This document shows positions 2,775-19,005 of a DNA stretch of 34,783 nt, piece after piece; positions within the stretch are counted from its first letter, which is position 1, and each line of letters begins with the position of its first letter. The stretch comes from a virus. The stretch lies in the IMG/VR virus record IMGVR_UViG_3300025151_000141, positions 1 through 34,783 of that record. The stretch is one strand, 5' to 3'. The position numbers and the translations under genes were made by a program. The notes beneath the pieces are model-generated. The model saw only the letters and a list, made by a program, of their open reading frames with translations. It was not told the DNA's origin and made no database searches.

Positions 2775-3614
2775 TCAGAGTAAGGGAAATTCCAATTGTG
2801 CTGTATCCTCTAGGATTTCCTCCTCTATTCTCTCCTTTACGATATTCCCCTTTTCTATGCTCTCTTTTGCGATTTCAAAATATTTTGAATCAAGTTCAAT
2901 ACCGATGAAGTTCCGCTTGAGATGTTTGCAAGCTACGCCAGTAGTGCCACTTCCCATAAAGCAATCCAGAACAATATCACTTTCATTGCTCCAAGAAATG
3001 ATATGATCATGAGCAAGCTGATATGGGAAAGGTGCAGGATGATTCCCTCCTCTAGATTCTGGAGTGATCTTCCAAATATTAAATCGTTGTCCATATTCAG
3101 GCTGTATCCAGTCTGGATTTGACTTTGCTTTAAAAGAACCATTTTCCAGCCGAATTGTCCCTTCGCCCTTTTTTTCTCCGACTGTTTTGCATTTTCTGTC
3201 TTTTATGGGATTAAATGTTTTTAATTTATCCTTACACCAGACAAACATATACTCAAAAACTGGTGCATATCTTGTCTGCAATGCTCCAACCGCAGAAAAA
3301 TTCGGTTTCATGTAAATCATCGTGTCGTGGAGATTAAATCCACACTCTTTAGCCCATAATGCCTGCTTGAAGGATGTGCCTGTTTCACTCCCTGCAATCG
3401 TTGCATCTCCCACTACCCAGACAACGACACCACCGTCTTTCGTTACTCGATAGAGATCCTGAATAACTGCTTTCCAAACATGCTCTCCCCATTGATCATT
3501 ATTGCCATTGTACGTGCGAAGGTTGTCGTAAGGAGGACTGGTTACTGTTAAATCCACACTCCCATCAGGTATCTTCTTCATCTTCTCCAGACAATCGCCT
3601 TGTATTAGGTCCAT
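2775..3614 (-). CDS. DNA methyltransferase, N4-cytosine (beta-class) type
   Basis: This is a SAM-dependent DNA methyltransferase. The catalytic motif TSPPY lies near residue 25 and the SAM-binding motif I (VLDCFMGSGTTGVAC) near residues 215-229, so catalytic motif precedes SAM motif, the beta-class order. TSPPY is typical of N4-cytosine enzymes, while adenine enzymes more often have DPPY or NPPY. The ATG at 3614 is preferred; a GTG one codon upstream is possible. There is no restriction endonuclease nearby, so it is an orphan enzyme, probably protecting phage DNA from host restriction or marking phage DNA (inference). Its target sequence cannot be read from the window. Confidence 0.88.
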   Translation of the reverse strand: MDLIQGDCLEKMKKIPDGSVDLTVTSPPYDNLRTYNGNNDQWGEHVWKAVIQDLYRVTKDGGVVVWVVGDATIAGSETGTSFKQALWAKECGFNLHDTMIYMKPNFSAVGALQTRYAPVFEYMFVWCKDKLKTFNPIKDRKCKTVGEKKGEGTIRLENGSFKAKSNPDWIQPEYGQRFNIWKITPESRGGNHPAPFPYQLAHDHIISWSNESDIVLDCFMGSGTTGVACKHLKRNFIGIELDSKYFEIAKESIEKGNIVKERIEEEILEDTAQLEFPLL

Positions 3615-13425: not shown

Positions 13426-14538
13426 CTATAGTTCAAATAGTTCTGTTTCGTCCTCATCAATCACTGACCCTGCTGCCCAGACGGGGTGAACGTACCGAGT
13501 GATCGTCTTGCCCTTCTTCAGATAAGCCCAAATCTCCTTGGCAAACCCAGTCTCAACTGGACAGTCCTTGACCTGGATGGAACTGTCGTCCCACTTGCGT
13601 TGCAGCTCAACCTGATTGGCCTGTTCCTTCTCCAACTCATCAATCTTTTCCTGACGTTTGGCGGCTTGGTATCCACCTCGACATTTGTGGGAACAGAACT
13701 TTGCCATCGATTTTCTAGTTCGTGACGTGAACTTCTCCTTGCAGTGCAGACAAGTTTTCGGTCTGATGGGCGAGTTGTCTGTCGCTTTACGTCCTCTCTC
13801 TCGTTGGGCATCACAATTACAACTGGCGGAACAGTAGACATGGCGTGAGTGCTTCTGCTCAAAGTGGTAGTTGCAGGATTTACATTTGACGATCTTCTTT
13901 TTGGGTTCTCCCCTCACTTTCCAATTGTTCCACTGTGCCCGCTCCTTTCTGGCAGTCTCAAAACAGTCGATGGTGCAATACTTCTGATGAGATTTCGTCT
14001 TGGTATAGTCCTTCCCACAGTGCAGACAGGCCACGATCTCTGCAGGTTTGCGAGGATTGGATTCCCAACATTTGCGTCCACAGAATCGGTGTGCCAACGT
14101 CTTGGGCTTGAACATCGTTCCGCAGGTCTCGCAGGGTTTCTCAGGCCGATCCTTTACATATAACCCCAGTCGTGCCCTCTCTTTCTTCGACTCGTAAGAA
14201 CACTCAGGAGAGCAGGTAATTGCTCTCTGATTGGCATAGAACTCAATCCCACAGACGACACAATTCTTGGGAGGATATTTCTTTGGCGCATTACGTTGAT
14301 TCCTCCGCTTAACACTGCACTCCTTGCTACAGGTAATTGATCTCCTGTCTGCCTGGAAGACGGTCTTGCAGACCACACATTTCTTGGGATTGACGGACCG
14401 ATATTTCGCCTTCTCATGCTCTAACTTATGGAGTCTGCTGCAGACCTCTCCACAGGCCAGTTGATGCGCCCGAATGGGGATGTACTTTAACTCACAGACG
14501 ACACAGATCCGTGGTTCGTTCCATCGCTTCTCACTCAA
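13426..14538 (-). CDS. protein with seven tandem four-cysteine zinc modules
   Basis: A protein of about 370 residues built from seven modules of C-x2-C-x12-15-C-x3-C. First cysteines fall near residues 12, 54, 93, 136, 171, 219 and 263. Modules 1-3 share CVVC and 2-3 share ITCSxECS, while 4-7 have CxxC and YC or FC. Linkers are Lys/Arg-rich. A C-terminal extension of about 85 residues (charged helix QEKIDELEKEQANQVELQRKW, then an acidic end) lacks cysteines. This looks like a nucleic-acid-binding repeat protein; no family name is certain. The TTG at 14538 is chosen because AGGAG lies seven bases before it and it overlaps the upstream stop. It is the gene just ahead of the pentanucleotide array. 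Confidence 0.75.
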   Translation of the reverse strand: MSEKRWNEPRICVVCELKYIPIRAHQLACGEVCSRLHKLEHEKAKYRSVNPKKCVVCKTVFQADRRSITCSKECSVKRRNQRNAPKKYPPKNCVVCGIEFYANQRAITCSPECSYESKKERARLGLYVKDRPEKPCETCGTMFKPKTLAHRFCGRKCWESNPRKPAEIVACLHCGKDYTKTKSHQKYCTIDCFETARKERAQWNNWKVRGEPKKKIVKCKSCNYHFEQKHSRHVYCSASCNCDAQRERGRKATDNSPIRPKTCLHCKEKFTSRTRKSMAKFCSHKCRGGYQAAKRQEKIDELEKEQANQVELQRKWDDSSIQVKDCPVETGFAKEIWAYLKKGKTITRYVHPVWAAGSVIDEDETELFEL

Positions 14539-14719
14539 CTTTCTTCTCCTCCATCTTCTCATCCCATTCCCAGAAAGCGCAGGAATGGAGTGGGGCCTCA
14601 TCTGCCCCAGTGACCCCGCACATTCCCCAAATATAACTGCTGGGAATGCGGAAGTTCCCTGCAGTTCGGTAGTGCCGACAATTGCGGCATTGTTTGTTGC
14701 CGCTATGGGGAAAGGTCAT
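14531..14719 (-). CDS. small cysteine-rich phage protein
   Basis: A 62-residue protein, MTFPHSGNKQCRNCRHY, then CGVTG and HSCAFWEWDEKMEEKKVE. The CRNCRHY motif with a later Cys-Gly and HSCAFWE is a common small phage metal-binding pattern with four cysteines (CxxC, one central, one C-terminal). The function is unknown. The ATG overlaps the upstream stop (ATGA) and its stop overlaps the TTG start of the seven-module gene. Confidence 0.7.
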   Translation of the reverse strand: MTFPHSGNKQCRNCRHYRTAGNFRIPSSYIWGMCGVTGADEAPLHSCAFWEWDEKMEEKKVE

Positions 14720-15347: not shown

Positions 15348-15527
15348 CTATCTAGCCATCTGGCTCATCTGTCGGATCTGTTCATTGATCCGCCCTTCCT
15401 CCAATCTTCGGAGGGTCCGCACAGCAGCAACCTCTTGGTCTGCTGCAACCTGTTTGGAGATGATCCGCATCATCTCCTTGATCTCACGGAGATCAGATTT
15501 CATTTCCTTGAATTCTTGGTCGGTCAT
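15348..15527 (-). CDS. short coiled-coil protein
   Basis: A 59-residue protein (MTDQEFKEMKSDLREIKEMM, then RIISKQVAADQEVAAVRTLRRLEEGRINEQIRQMSQMAR) with heptad-like hydrophobic spacing and no cysteines. It is probably a helical oligomer of unknown role. The ATG at 15527 lies inside the 3' end of the upstream regulator gene, overlapping by 35 bases. It is listed because it fills the gap between two leftward genes in the same early operon. Confidence 0.5.
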   Translation of the reverse strand: MTDQEFKEMKSDLREIKEMMRIISKQVAADQEVAAVRTLRRLEEGRINEQIRQMSQMAR

Positions 15528-15693
15528 TCAGTAGTCCTGTGATTTCGCTAATGGCTGAACGTGTCCAAAGGATTGGACCTCTGGGTGTGTATTGCCTGCT
15601 TGACTTCGTTGTCCCTGACTGGTGAAGTTTTCTCAATTTATCAATTGAGACACCTGTCTCTTGCGATAATTCTGTAGTCGTTATAAGGTTCAT
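15493..15693 (-). CDS. small helix-turn-helix regulator, MerR/excisionase-like
   Basis: A 66-residue protein starting MNLITTTELSQETGVSIDKLRKL, a MerR/Xis-like winged-helix opening (TELSQETGVSIDKLRKLHQSG), then RGPILWTRSAISEITGLLND. It is read leftward, divergent from the repressor at 15781, with the shared switch region between them. That places it as a Cro-like or excisionase-like first gene of the early leftward operon. An ATG three codons upstream (15702) is also possible. The exact role cannot be told from sequence. Confidence 0.6.
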   Translation of the reverse strand: MNLITTTELSQETGVSIDKLRKLHQSGTTKSSRQYTPRGPILWTRSAISEITGLLNDRPRIQGNEI

Positions 15694-15726
15694 GGCTTGC
15701 ATGGTTAGCAGTTAGCTATTGCTAAA

Positions 15727-15780: not shown

Positions 15781-16031
15781 TTGGCGAAAGCAAGTGTTCC
15801 AGCTAAAATTGGTCAAGAAATTCAATTAGCTAGGATAAAAAAAATTGGAGTCAGTCAGACTTGGCAGAGCATTTCGGTTGGGGTCCATCTGGACAGACCT
15901 TGATTTCCAGGTTGGAAAAAGGGTCAACCAAGACAGATGCCGATAAATTAAAGACTATTTTAGACTTCTTAAATATCGAGCAGGATGCTGAAGATGGTCA
16001 GGAGATTGAGGACCTTGTAAAAAATTTATAA
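15781..16031 (+). CDS. phage repressor, Xre/CI-like, frame broken at A8 tract
   Basis: Frame one from a TTG at 15781 reads MAKASVPAKIGQEIQLARIKK, then leaves the homology. The -1 frame continues NWSQSDLAEHFGWGPSGQTL, ISRLEKGSTKTDADKLKTIL and DFLNIEQDAEDGQEIEDLVKNL to TAA at 16029-16031. Joined, these form a clear Xre-type helix-turn-helix (LARIKKNWSQSDLAEHFG...ISRLEKG) of about 83 residues. The joint falls exactly on A-AAA-AAA within a run of eight A (15837-15844). Either the ribosome slips by -1 there, or one A is missing through sequencing error or mutation. AAGGG lies four bases before the TTG, which is close spacing. Confidence 0.65.
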
Positions 16032-16049
16032 AAAATTTGTTTTTTCTTG

Positions 16050-16078
16050 TTGACTATTACACGCAATGCGTGTCTAAT
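16050..16078 (+). promoter_or_regulatory. rightward promoter with palindromic operator in its spacer
   Basis: TTGACT (16050-16055) and TCTAAT (16073-16078) are 17 bases apart, five of six consensus matches in each box. The spacer holds a perfect palindrome ACACGCA-A-TGCGTGT (16059-16073), with flanking pairing of GACTATT and AATAGTC. It should drive the three small rightward genes starting at 16133 and looks tightly regulated, perhaps by the HTH protein at the end of that operon or another regulator. The operator differs from the one at 15727, so a second binding protein is implied. Confidence 0.6.
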
Positions 16079-16132
16079 AGTCTCAACAGGTTAGCAATGA
16101 CGCTGATCTAAATCAGACACAACAGAGGCAGC

Positions 16133-16366
16133 ATGATTCAAGTTTGGAATCCCAAAGACAATCCACTTCCTTGGAAATGGGGAAAAGGACAGAAAAAGTT
16201 TTCGGCACGAATCAAAATAGGTTCGTGGGTAGAAATTGATTATCGTGCAGGACTTCCTGGTTGGTTCCAAGTTGTCGAAATCAGTTCTAATCGTGACTGG
16301 ATCAAAGTAGATGGGTTAGAAGGTGAGATTGTACGACATCAAATGATAAGTTTTACCAATAAATAA
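16133..16366 (+). CDS. hypothetical rightward protein, SH3-like look
   Basis: A 77-residue protein starting MIQVWNPKDNPLPWKWGKGQ, then FSARIKIGSWVEIDYRAGLPGWFQVVEIS and GLEGEIVRHQMISFTNK. It is beta-rich with a GSWVEI-x-Y and GWFQVVEI pattern that suggests a small SH3-like barrel; no family is recognised. GAGG lies five bases before the ATG. It is the first gene after the regulated promoter at 16050-16078 in the lysogeny-side operon. Confidence 0.6.
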   Translation: MIQVWNPKDNPLPWKWGKGQKKFSARIKIGSWVEIDYRAGLPGWFQVVEISSNRDWIKVDGLEGEIVRHQMISFTNK

Positions 16367-16369
16367 AGT

Positions 16370-16600
16370 ATGACACACAAAGAAATTGCTCAATCACTAA
16401 CCAAAGCCCGTGGGATTTGCCACTTTACTGGCGAACCTCCCACATTCTCAGATTTGCTGGAAATGGTAGAAGAAGCAGACGTTGCATTGGCTGACACATT
16501 TGGACGTTATGACCATGTCACCATTCAAGCGGTTGTTCGTAAGATGCTGCAGAAAAATGATTCGGCCTCAAGAATCTGTGCAAATCCTCTTACCATATGA
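16370..16600 (+). CDS. hypothetical rightward protein
   Basis: A 76-residue protein, MTHKEIAQSLTKARGICHFTG, then EPPTFSDLLEMVEEADVALAD and HVTIQAVVRKMLQKN. It looks mostly helical; I do not recognise it. The ATG comes three bases after the previous stop, and its stop overlaps the next ATG (ATGA), so the three rightward genes form one coupled unit. Confidence 0.6.
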   Translation: MTHKEIAQSLTKARGICHFTGEPPTFSDLLEMVEEADVALADTFGRYDHVTIQAVVRKMLQKNDSASRICANPLTI

Positions 16601-16764
16601 CCAGCATTGAATTCAGACATGCTCGACAGAGGTTAGGCATGTCAATGGTCGAGGCATCCACTAAGTGCGGTGTACCCTATCGTACATGGCAGGATTGGGA
16701 AGCAGGCAAACGGAGAGTACCCCCTTGGGTCAAGTGCCTGCTTTTCTATCTGGAGAGGAGTTAA
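16597..16764 (+). CDS. small helix-turn-helix protein
   Basis: A 55-residue protein, MTSIEFRHARQRLGMSMVEA, then STKCGVPYRTWQDWEAGKRR and VPPWVKCLLFYLERS. ARQRLGMS-EAS-x-CGVPYRTWQDWEAGKR is a typical Xre-type HTH with the recognition helix at YRTWQDWE. Its ATG overlaps the previous stop. It is the last gene before the attP-like site. A role in regulating the rightward promoter or assisting integration/excision is possible, but neither is shown. Confidence 0.7.
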   Translation: MTSIEFRHARQRLGMSMVEASTKCGVPYRTWQDWEAGKRRVPPWVKCLLFYLERS

Positions 16765-16778
16765 ACGTTATGATCTTT

Positions 16779-16931
16779 GTGCTAGTAAGTGCTAGTGTTG
16801 AAATTCCTCTGGAGGCGTGCGCCCATCAGGACTTGAACCTGAAACCTACTGATTAGAAGTCAGATAAGATTAGGTCTTAACACACTGAATTTGTTTGGTA
16901 TATTTAGGTAAATGAAAAGTGATGTGCTTGT
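16779..16931. other. attP: attP-like site: tRNA-Arg(UCU) 3' half with candidate arm sites
   Basis: On the minus strand 16864-16818 reproduces the 3' half of a tRNA-Arg gene, positions 27-73. It has an anticodon arm with loop CTTCTAA (anticodon UCU), a five-base variable loop, a 5-bp T-stem TCAGG/CCTGA around TTCAAGT, then TGGGCGC and discriminator A. No matching 5' half (GCGCCCA) lies upstream, and the outermost anticodon pair is a T-T mismatch, so it is not a working tRNA. GTGCTAGT occurs twice, ten bases apart (16779-16786, 16789-16796), on one side, and GTGCTTGT (16924-16931) on the other, as arm-type integrase sites would be. Phage genes lie on both sides, so this reads as attP rather than attL/attR. 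Confidence 0.7.
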
Positions 16932-16935
16932 GTGA

Positions 16936-19005
16936 TCAGTCCAAAAGTCCACTAGAAATCCTACCACTGAGACCTCCAAAGAACATATTTCGACGGGCAT
17001 TTTCCTGTGCCATCAAGTCCCTCAGTGCCGCATAGTTTTGCAGGTCGTCCAGACTCTGACCAACGGCAGCAGATCCCTGTCCAGACAATCGAGGACCTAG
17101 TTGTTCTGACATCTGTCTCATCTCTCTGCGTCTCAGCAGATCATCCGCAAAGGTTGCCCCTCTTGCCAGGAGATCCAGTTTGTTTGCCTGCATTGCACTG
17201 CTGAACTCATTGGGAGTTAGTCCACCAAGTTCATCTTGATTTGCCAGACGTTCTGCAGTTCGACTGTTTCCTAATACATACCCTGCAGTTTCGCTCATCG
17301 TGCGTTCTGCATCCATCTCTCTCTGGAACTGTGCATACTTCTCAGGAGTTGGGAATAGGATTTCAATGCGTCTCTGCATATTCGGAGAGGACCAGTCTCT
17401 GGTTCGATCTCCTGCAATGGCAGTTTTCTCGTTCATCTGGTCCTTCAGTTTTTGTACAAACCCTGAACGCATGGCATTCATCTCTGCTTCAGTACGACCT
17501 TCTACGAAATTCTGCAATCGATCTGGGGGCATTCGGGGGATCTCTGTATATCCTTGCAAATTCAATCTCTGCATCTCTCTCGTATCAAATCCTTCTCGAC
17601 GCAACTGCTGATAGGCAGGATTATCAACATCTGCAGCATCCATCATCTGCGAGTAGTTCTTGGACAGAGATCGACGTTCTGCCCCAGAGACATAACCAGA
17701 CTCCACAGGTCTCCGGTCAATCATATCCCCTACCCCTTGCCGTGTATCTTCAATCTCTCGGACTGTGTAAGGACCTGGTCGAATGTTGCCTTGATCCGTT
17801 TTGATTGGGCCTGTTGTCGGTTCGCCAGCAAATCCGTAGTTCTGTTGTATGGATTTCTGAGCTTGTGAGAATCTGGGATCTCTCTCATAAATCTGCTGAT
17901 ATACTGGACTCCGCATCAAGTCGTTCTGGATTGCCTGATATCTTGGAGAAAGTGCATCTCTCGTCTGTTTCATCTCTTGAGCAAATAATTCTGGATCAGA
18001 TCCAACACCCATCCCTCTTTCTGCACTACCAATCAACCTTTCTCTCTGCCCTGCTTGCCGATTAAACAACATATCACTGATCTGCTCAGATGCAGGTCCT
18101 GGGGTCGATACCAGTGCATCGGTAGTCTTTCTCAGATTCCGACCTGCTAGGTCAGGCATGGCAACTTCTGCCCCTCGTTGAGCTGTCTCAAACTCACCGA
18201 GTCGTTGTCTGGCAGCATCCACAGCAGCAGCACCTCTCAGTCCTGTGTCGTCTTCAATACTGGTCAGCAGTTTGCGGAGGGCACGGTTGTTGGGATCATA
18301 ATCATTGACAGGAGAGGCAGGCCCAATCGGAGTGTTTCCACCAGATCCTGAGAGCAATCTCTGCAGTCCTGCACGACCTAGATCCACGGCTGGACTGATA
18401 GTCCCACCTGTCGCAGCACCAACTGCTGCACCAATGCCAACATTCTGATCTGCCCCTGCTGCCGTCAAAGCACCTGCCCCTGCACCAGACATTGCTCCAG
18501 TCGTTGCAGACCTGGCAACATTACGGATAGGTTGTCCGGTAGTCGGTTGCAGCATCTGAGGCAACTGCATCCCCAATCGTGCTGCGGCAGCACCTTCTGC
18601 TGCACCTCCCATGATTCCACCTCCGACATTCATCAGTGCGGTTGCCGTGGGGTCGATGTTCTGGAAGGTCTGGCGTTCCCCTTCAATCTGGTTCTTTGCC
18701 TCGTCATAGGTTTCATCTGTGACCAGAGTGCGGAAGATGGCTTCCACCTCATCACCCCATTCGTACATCAACCCCCCTGCAATCTCTCTGGCAACTGCCC
18801 CTGCAAACTGAGGACTGAACTTGTCACCGAGGGCCTTCTGGTATCCTGCCTTCTTGCCTTGTTTGTTGATCAGATAGCGGACTGCGTCCTCAAAACTGTC
18901 TCGACTGTACCCTTTTCGACGCAGGTACTCGTTGATGTTTTCTTCCGAAACATTTCTAGCCCTTGCATCAGAGACTTTGACTAGAATCTCCTGCAGTTTG
19001 GTCAT
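16936..19005 (-). CDS. ejection/internal virion protein with Gly/Ala-rich segment
   Basis: A 689-residue protein, the last gene of the structural operon. It starts MTKLQEILVKVSDARARNVS with a small helical domain (EENINEYLRRKGYSRDSFEDAVRYL). Around residues 125-205 there is a long Gly/Ala-rich stretch (NVGGGIMGGAAEGAAAARLGM, TTGAMSGAGAGALTAAG, GIGAAVGAATGGTI) like the membrane-active glycine zippers of phage ejection proteins. The rest is charged, helical and Gln/Arg-rich. Such proteins are packed in the virion and enter the host with the DNA. No enzyme motif is seen. It ends five bases from the attP-like region. Confidence 0.7.
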   Translation of the reverse strand: MTKLQEILVKVSDARARNVSEENINEYLRRKGYSRDSFEDAVRYLINKQGKKAGYQKALGDKFSPQFAGAVAREIAGGLMYEWGDEVEAIFRTLVTDETYDEAKNQIEGERQTFQNIDPTATALMNVGGGIMGGAAEGAAAARLGMQLPQMLQPTTGQPIRNVARSATTGAMSGAGAGALTAAGADQNVGIGAAVGAATGGTISPAVDLGRAGLQRLLSGSGGNTPIGPASPVNDYDPNNRALRKLLTSIEDDTGLRGAAAVDAARQRLGEFETAQRGAEVAMPDLAGRNLRKTTDALVSTPGPASEQISDMLFNRQAGQRERLIGSAERGMGVGSDPELFAQEMKQTRDALSPRYQAIQNDLMRSPVYQQIYERDPRFSQAQKSIQQNYGFAGEPTTGPIKTDQGNIRPGPYTVREIEDTRQGVGDMIDRRPVESGYVSGAERRSLSKNYSQMMDAADVDNPAYQQLRREGFDTREMQRLNLQGYTEIPRMPPDRLQNFVEGRTEAEMNAMRSGFVQKLKDQMNEKTAIAGDRTRDWSSPNMQRRIEILFPTPEKYAQFQREMDAERTMSETAGYVLGNSRTAERLANQDELGGLTPNEFSSAMQANKLDLLARGATFADDLLRRREMRQMSEQLGPRLSGQGSAAVGQSLDDLQNYAALRDLMAQENARRNMFFGGLSGRISSGLLD

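Follow-up and report, generated by a model that had tools for sequence, protein, structure and literature searches.

The 34,783-bp viral DNA analysed here (the window, which is the whole of the linear IMG/VR record IMGVR_UViG_3300025151_000141) carries the 3ʹ half of a tRNA-Arg(UCU) gene. Judging from comparison with related sequences, this half gene is very probably a true attP, from a family of temperate phages whose integration target is tRNA-Arg(UCU), and the integrase gene has probably been deleted in the window lineage. The attP would then be an orphan site, and the phage very probably unable to integrate by means of its own enzyme. Loss of the integrase gene was not among the options weighed in the initial annotation of this DNA; it is supported by a remnant of the 3ʹ end of an integrase gene at 15993–16031.

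The attP core lies at 16813–16866 on the minus strand. It consists of the anticodon loop (CTTCTAA), the variable region, the T arm and the 3ʹ strand of the acceptor stem, followed by CACGCCT. The initial description of this stretch as a nearly canonical 3ʹ half of tRNA-Arg(UCU) is borne out by an Rfam match, by matches to tRNA-Arg DNA, and by identity to the core of another contig, L051. The Rfam tRNA family (RF00005) matches 16818–16883 on the minus strand with 26.8 bits (gathering score, 29; E = 0.14 for the window), and the best DNA match of the core stretch among phage tRNA-Arg genes has an E-value of 1e-7 and 87.8% identity. ARAGORN called no complete tRNA. The lack of such a call and the sub-threshold Rfam score are both expected, because only half of the gene is present. 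The core is identical to that of L051 at 54 of 54 nt; the flanks of the two contigs are 56% identical over the 80 nt to the left and 50% identical over the 60 nt to the right, with a shuffled baseline of 50%. Phage genes lie on both sides of the tRNA half, and a scan of IMG/VR with a DNA pattern found the same core in seven contigs. The core varies among the relatives compared: its alleles are tRNA-like, and some encode the CCA and others do not. The island of identity at the core is, to all appearances, the trace of repeated exchange with the host tRNA gene.

Is the tRNA-like stretch an attP at all? The alternative is that it resembles a tRNA by chance, or that it is a tRNA fragment serving some other function; either would fit an Rfam score below the gathering score and arm repeats that are weak. 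We consider this extremely improbable, since the 54-nt identity is set in flanks that cannot be aligned, and the stretch occupies the same place, beside the same structural gene, as in relatives that encode an integrase. For the tRNA half itself, we rejected a chance origin on the strength of the identity to the L051 core.

The structural-side gene that borders the attP (16936–19005, minus strand; PHROG 5880) has homologues with 70–85% identity in four contigs. Each of the four has the same tRNA half after the stop codon of this gene, and a tyrosine integrase gene adjoins the tRNA half on the opposite strand. The R, HxxR, H and Y positions characteristic of tyrosine integrases can be seen in an alignment of these proteins; we take them to be the catalytic residues. 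An integrase gene adjoins the core in six of the seven contigs found with the core pattern. The remaining contig stops 110 nt from the beginning of the core pattern, by which point it has entered the integrase tail. Taken over every contig that runs past the core, a tyrosine integrase gene is found near it in 13 of 13, at distances from ~25 bp to 1.5 kb. This count combines the core-pattern scan with integrase-based and structural-gene searches; the integrase-based part is biased by construction and the core-pattern part is not. It includes G771, in which a truncated integrase gene reaches 25.4 bits, short of the cut-off, and it leaves out L057, L058, L059 and L061, which have more distant integrases and no match to the core. 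The identity of the site as the attP of a tyrosine integrase, proposed in the initial annotation, is thus supported by relatives that have the same core and carry an integrase gene beside it.

Two types of integrase are encoded at this one target: a 353-aa type in seven contigs (one of them cut at the 5ʹ end) and a 344-aa type in six (one of them cut), with about 36% identity between the types. We observed the 344-aa type beside the same tRNA-Arg(UCU) core in L018, L019, L052–L056 and L060. The core of L018 and L019 points the other way with respect to the structural gene that borders it.

The window encodes an SU10-type portal and capsid, a terminase, a D5-type helicase-primase, RusA, a dCTP deaminase-like protein, a DNA methylase and structural proteins, and almost all of its genes are on the minus strand. 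A 391-aa protein encoded at 13426–14601 has many repeated CxxC zinc-ribbon-like units, an HNH-endonuclease PHROG match and a weak NinG match, and similar DNA is present in five of the five relatives compared (G1–G5). The window does not encode an integrase of its own. As reported initially for the 34.8 kb, no integrase was found: there is no match to the tyrosine recombinase profile PF00589 at E ≤ 10, and no match to the serine recombinase profile PF00239. PF00589 does detect the integrase in those relatives that reach the integrase gene. On the cassette side, the neighbouring ORFs of the attP encode 77, 76 and 55 aa, in agreement with the earlier statement that the adjacent genes are too small. 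Tyrosine and serine recombinases are larger than this. We rejected the idea of a recombinase hidden among the three small cassette genes, whose products are too small at 55–77 aa and include an HTH regulator.

The evidence for loss of the integrase gene comes from the closest relative of the attP region, contig 3300034375_009083 (L041). Its gene order is integrase (257–1318), an ORF with a YccJ match (1420–1653), a further ORF (1704–2174), a three-gene cassette and the core. Window positions 16125–16866, which cover the cassette and core, are 92% identical to L041 at the DNA level (689 of 748 columns). A second match, between window positions 15993–16135 and L041 1280–1422, has 85% identity (122 of 144). 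It begins with the final 39 nt of that integrase gene, including the stop codon (15993–16031, plus strand), and continues through the 3ʹ flank of the lost gene into the cassette (16032–16135, plus strand). Nothing else of the integrase gene is recognizable in the window. This scar points to an integrase gene that has most likely been deleted. Two features speak against that reading: the part inside the gene is as short as 39 nt, and at the protein level it gives no significant match (tblastn E = 0.41). The suggestion that a host or unrecognised recombinase acts at the site is not supported, with no recombinase-like gene in view; no exotic recombinase is needed to account for an attP without an integrase gene. 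Our inferences are three: a deletion caused the loss, the phage is now virulent in its behaviour, and the core once worked in the window lineage.

The initial annotation had also offered, as one option for an almost complete genome, an integrase gene in the small missing part. The window is not closed: base 1 cuts the portal gene, and the capsid gene is found at the opposite end. Measured against its 38,378-bp relative G2, the window is ~90% complete, and the interval between its ends corresponds to ~3.7 kb of G2. Hence, an integrase gene might exist in the interval that the record lacks, or might have been dropped by misassembly at the scar. We regard this as very unlikely. In G2, the interval holds head genes (the portal C-terminus, an ORF of ~700 aa, a small ORF and a 329-aa scaffold-like ORF) and no integrase gene, and the sole PF00589 match of G2 is elsewhere, beside the core. 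G1 also covers the missing interval and has no PF00589 match, but it looks like a near duplicate of G2. Moreover, the integrase gene is beside the core in all 13 relatives described above, and the scar is a clean join from a repressor-like ORF to the integrase tail.

This repressor-like ORF (15781–16031, plus strand) encodes an HTH protein of the XRE/HTH_3 type (HTH_3, 27.7 bits; cut-off, 23) and is fused in frame to the integrase tail. It occupies the place where relatives have their repressor, and it is broken once, by a frame shift of −1 at a run of eight A residues (15837–15844). For this frame change, mutation, a homopolymer sequencing error and programmed slippage cannot be told apart. 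No match was found when named phages were searched with the second part of the ORF. Divergent from the repressor-like ORF, at the xis/cro position, is a small MerR-type HTH gene (15493–15702, minus strand) that matches the excisionase/regulator family PHROG 66 (E = 0.0011) and has homologues at the same place in L005, L006 and L007. In the three relatives that we read closely, a repressor-like gene precedes the integrase gene in an operon; it is S24/CI-like in L006 and L019, and less clearly repressor-like in L005. Beyond it, L006 and L005 have a divergent small MerR/excisionase-like gene homologous to that at 15493–15702.

These arrangements suggest the following history. The family would integrate by means of a tyrosine integrase into the host tRNA-Arg(UCU) gene, with the core rebuilding the 3ʹ half of the tRNA. 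In the window lineage, the integrase gene would have been deleted, either directly or through recombination with a relative that lacks it. The simplest course would be a deletion extending from the end of the repressor-like gene into the end of the integrase gene, which would fuse the upstream repressor-like gene to the last integrase codons and leave an orphan attP. The intact island of identity at the core suggests that the loss was too recent for the core to have decayed, or that selection of some kind still acts on it. Weighing against this history, no other family member without an integrase gene was found among the relatives searched.

We also considered the arm-type repeats of the site. 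Three candidate repeats are on the plus strand: two copies of GTGCTAGT, with starts 10 bp apart, on the Pʹ side (16779–16786 and 16789–16796), and one copy of GTGCTTGT on the P side (16924–16931). The GTGCTWGT motif occurs three times in the entire window, and all three copies, at 16779, 16789 and 16924, fall inside a 153-bp stretch around the core. To this extent, the initial report of GTGCTWGT repeats on both sides is correct; their standing as arms is statistically only suggestive. Three copies are an ordinary number for the window (2.05 expected; at least three in 35 of 100 shuffles). Shuffling the flanks produced an 8-mer of such quality, with three copies and on both sides of the core, in 8 of 400 trials, and 22 of 400 segments drawn at random from the window contained one; a laxer statistic gave no excess (130 of 400 shuffles). 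The GTGCTWGT repeats are plausible arms, weakly above chance. In relatives with the 353-aa integrase, a ATTTTCRATYTKKCRA-like sequence is found on both sides of the core, less clearly so on the left in L049, and L018 and L019, with the 344-aa integrase, have ATATCCCGGCAA-like repeats at the core. The ATTTTCRATYTKKCRA-like repeats rest on conservation between contigs, and a shuffle test with the lax statistic gave no excess for them. There are thus three types of arm region in the family: ATTTTCRATYTKKCRA-like, ATATCCCGGCAA-like and, in the window, GTGCTWGT. One tRNA-Arg target with two integrase types, opposite core orientations and three arm types makes the co-evolution of integrases and their arm sites testable.

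Neither L041 nor the other relatives with the L041 integrase share the arm region of the window. For this reason, the integrase lost from the window lineage may not have been of the L041 type, or the cassette and scar may have arrived together by recombination. If the cassette with its scar did enter by recombination at or near the core, the lineage would still be without an integrase gene now.

The arms also bear on whether the attP is used in trans, with a co-infecting or resident relative providing the integrase, such that the window phage would be a conditional lysogen. The intact core matches that of a phage with an integrase gene at every position, and the xis-like gene has been retained, as would be expected for a site still in use. 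However, the arms differ from the ATTTTCRATYTKKCRA-like arms of relatives with the 353-aa integrase, so the integrase of those relatives may not load, and the repressor-like ORF is broken. Use in trans is therefore unlikely. Similarly, it is doubtful that selection maintains the orphan attP, whether as a site for an integrase acting in trans or as a recombination hot spot at which integrase-cassette modules and arm types are traded around a fixed core. In the first of these cases, a full-size phage would borrow its integrase from co-resident relatives. For an orphan attP left by deletion, which is the reading that we prefer, the window would record how a member of an uncultured phage family passed from temperate to integrase-less, and its scar can still be read. 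A search of IMG/VR for the tandem GTGCTWGT arms together with the core gave no matches, and hence no intact phage with the arms of the window.

The initial annotation had called for a search of bacterial genomes for the core at tRNA-Arg(UCU) genes, and for related prophages. The exact core pattern had no match in genome_contigs. A looser pattern matched nine stretches, each of which differs from the core; they lie in Chromohalobacter, Pantoea symbionts, Ecksteinia, Nitrospirota/Manganitrophaceae and one MAG. ARAGORN was run on seven of these nine and placed six inside tRNA-Arg(tct) genes. Among 390 genomes of one order around Chromohalobacter, a small sample, there was no core with one mismatch or fewer, and among 369 genomes of the class, also a small sample, there was no match to the integrase profile at E ≤ 1e-40. 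Neither a prophage nor a host with the exact core was found in genome_contigs or in these two samples. In a Nitrospirae MAG (L032), positions 3117–3158 resemble the 3ʹ half of a tRNA-Arg gene and received no tRNA call from ARAGORN; this stretch may be an att duplicate of another element.

Loss of the integrase is an ordinary route from a temperate to a purely lytic phage. In the virulent Lactobacillus phage LL-H, the integration elements are reportedly defective. This phage and others that became virulent from a temperate origin are said to resemble the window in that they keep an attP-like site and an integrase remnant and have lost lysogeny functions. LL-H differs in host and phage family, and in the window the remnant is reduced to the last 39 nt, fused to a repressor-like ORF. 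We searched the literature on virulent phages with an attP but without an integrase gene, and found no paper on such a case. Our analysis serves as a warning that an attP without an integrase gene need not imply an unknown recombinase.

Integration at tRNA genes has been described for other environmental phages. The T7-like cyanophages S-TIP37 and P-SSP7 have an integrase system at tRNA-Leu, with an attP core identical to the tRNA region, and integration of this type requires both the integrase gene and the attP (PMC8776855). The window family shares a tRNA-gene integrase system with these phages, which carry the integrase gene that the window lacks. The CRP-810-type roseophages are an environmental group, known mostly from UViGs, that integrates at a tRNA gene and in which 217 of 251 members have an integrase and some do not (PMC11288001). 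They are like the window family in being environmental, in having an integrase in most members and in targeting a tRNA gene; their target is tRNA-Thr, with a 13-bp identity, rather than tRNA-Arg(UCU).

Between the integrase scar and the attP is a cassette of three genes on the plus strand (16133–16764). The first (16133–16366) encodes a 77-aa protein with a 94% identical counterpart in L041. The second (16370–16600) encodes a 76-aa protein that is 99% identical in L041 and 84% identical in L042. The third (16597–16764) encodes a 55-aa HTH regulator that resembles Aca2/YdiL in profile searches and in phmmer matches to PDB. For the 77-aa and 76-aa proteins, there was no PHROGs or PADLOC match, no Pfam match over the cut-off and no match in a search of named phages; their AlphaFold models are poor (mean pLDDT of 60.1 and 56.7, respectively). 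The 55-aa protein scores 23.4 bits with Aca2_YdiL, just under the cut-off of 23.8, and its L041 homologue scores 24.4. With phmmer, its PDB matches include a 65-aa regulator at 9.9e-6 and four Aca2 sequences at 2.9e-4 to 0.047. The genes for the 76-aa and HTH proteins travel together in L042 (84% and 55% identity), an otherwise different phage that carries an integrase gene elsewhere in its contig. Known acr-aca operons with Aca2 (PMC8434428) comprise small genes and, after them, a short HTH regulator. The window cassette has this layout, and we propose it, by association, as a candidate acr-aca operon. It differs from such operons in having no known Acr homologue, so an anti-CRISPR role here is putative. 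The cassette at the attP is nonetheless a concrete anti-CRISPR candidate.

Upstream of the cassette is a 15-bp palindrome, ACACGCAATGCGTGT (16059–16073), with 7-bp arms; the L041 copy has two changes. The palindrome is a possible operator of the HTH regulator. By eye, its context is promoter-like, with TTGACT before it and TCTAAT after it. The stretch between the integrase gene and the attP looks like an insertion spot. It is nearly empty in several relatives, and it holds several small genes in L041 (1318–2850) and one 258-aa gene in L046 (1130–1990).
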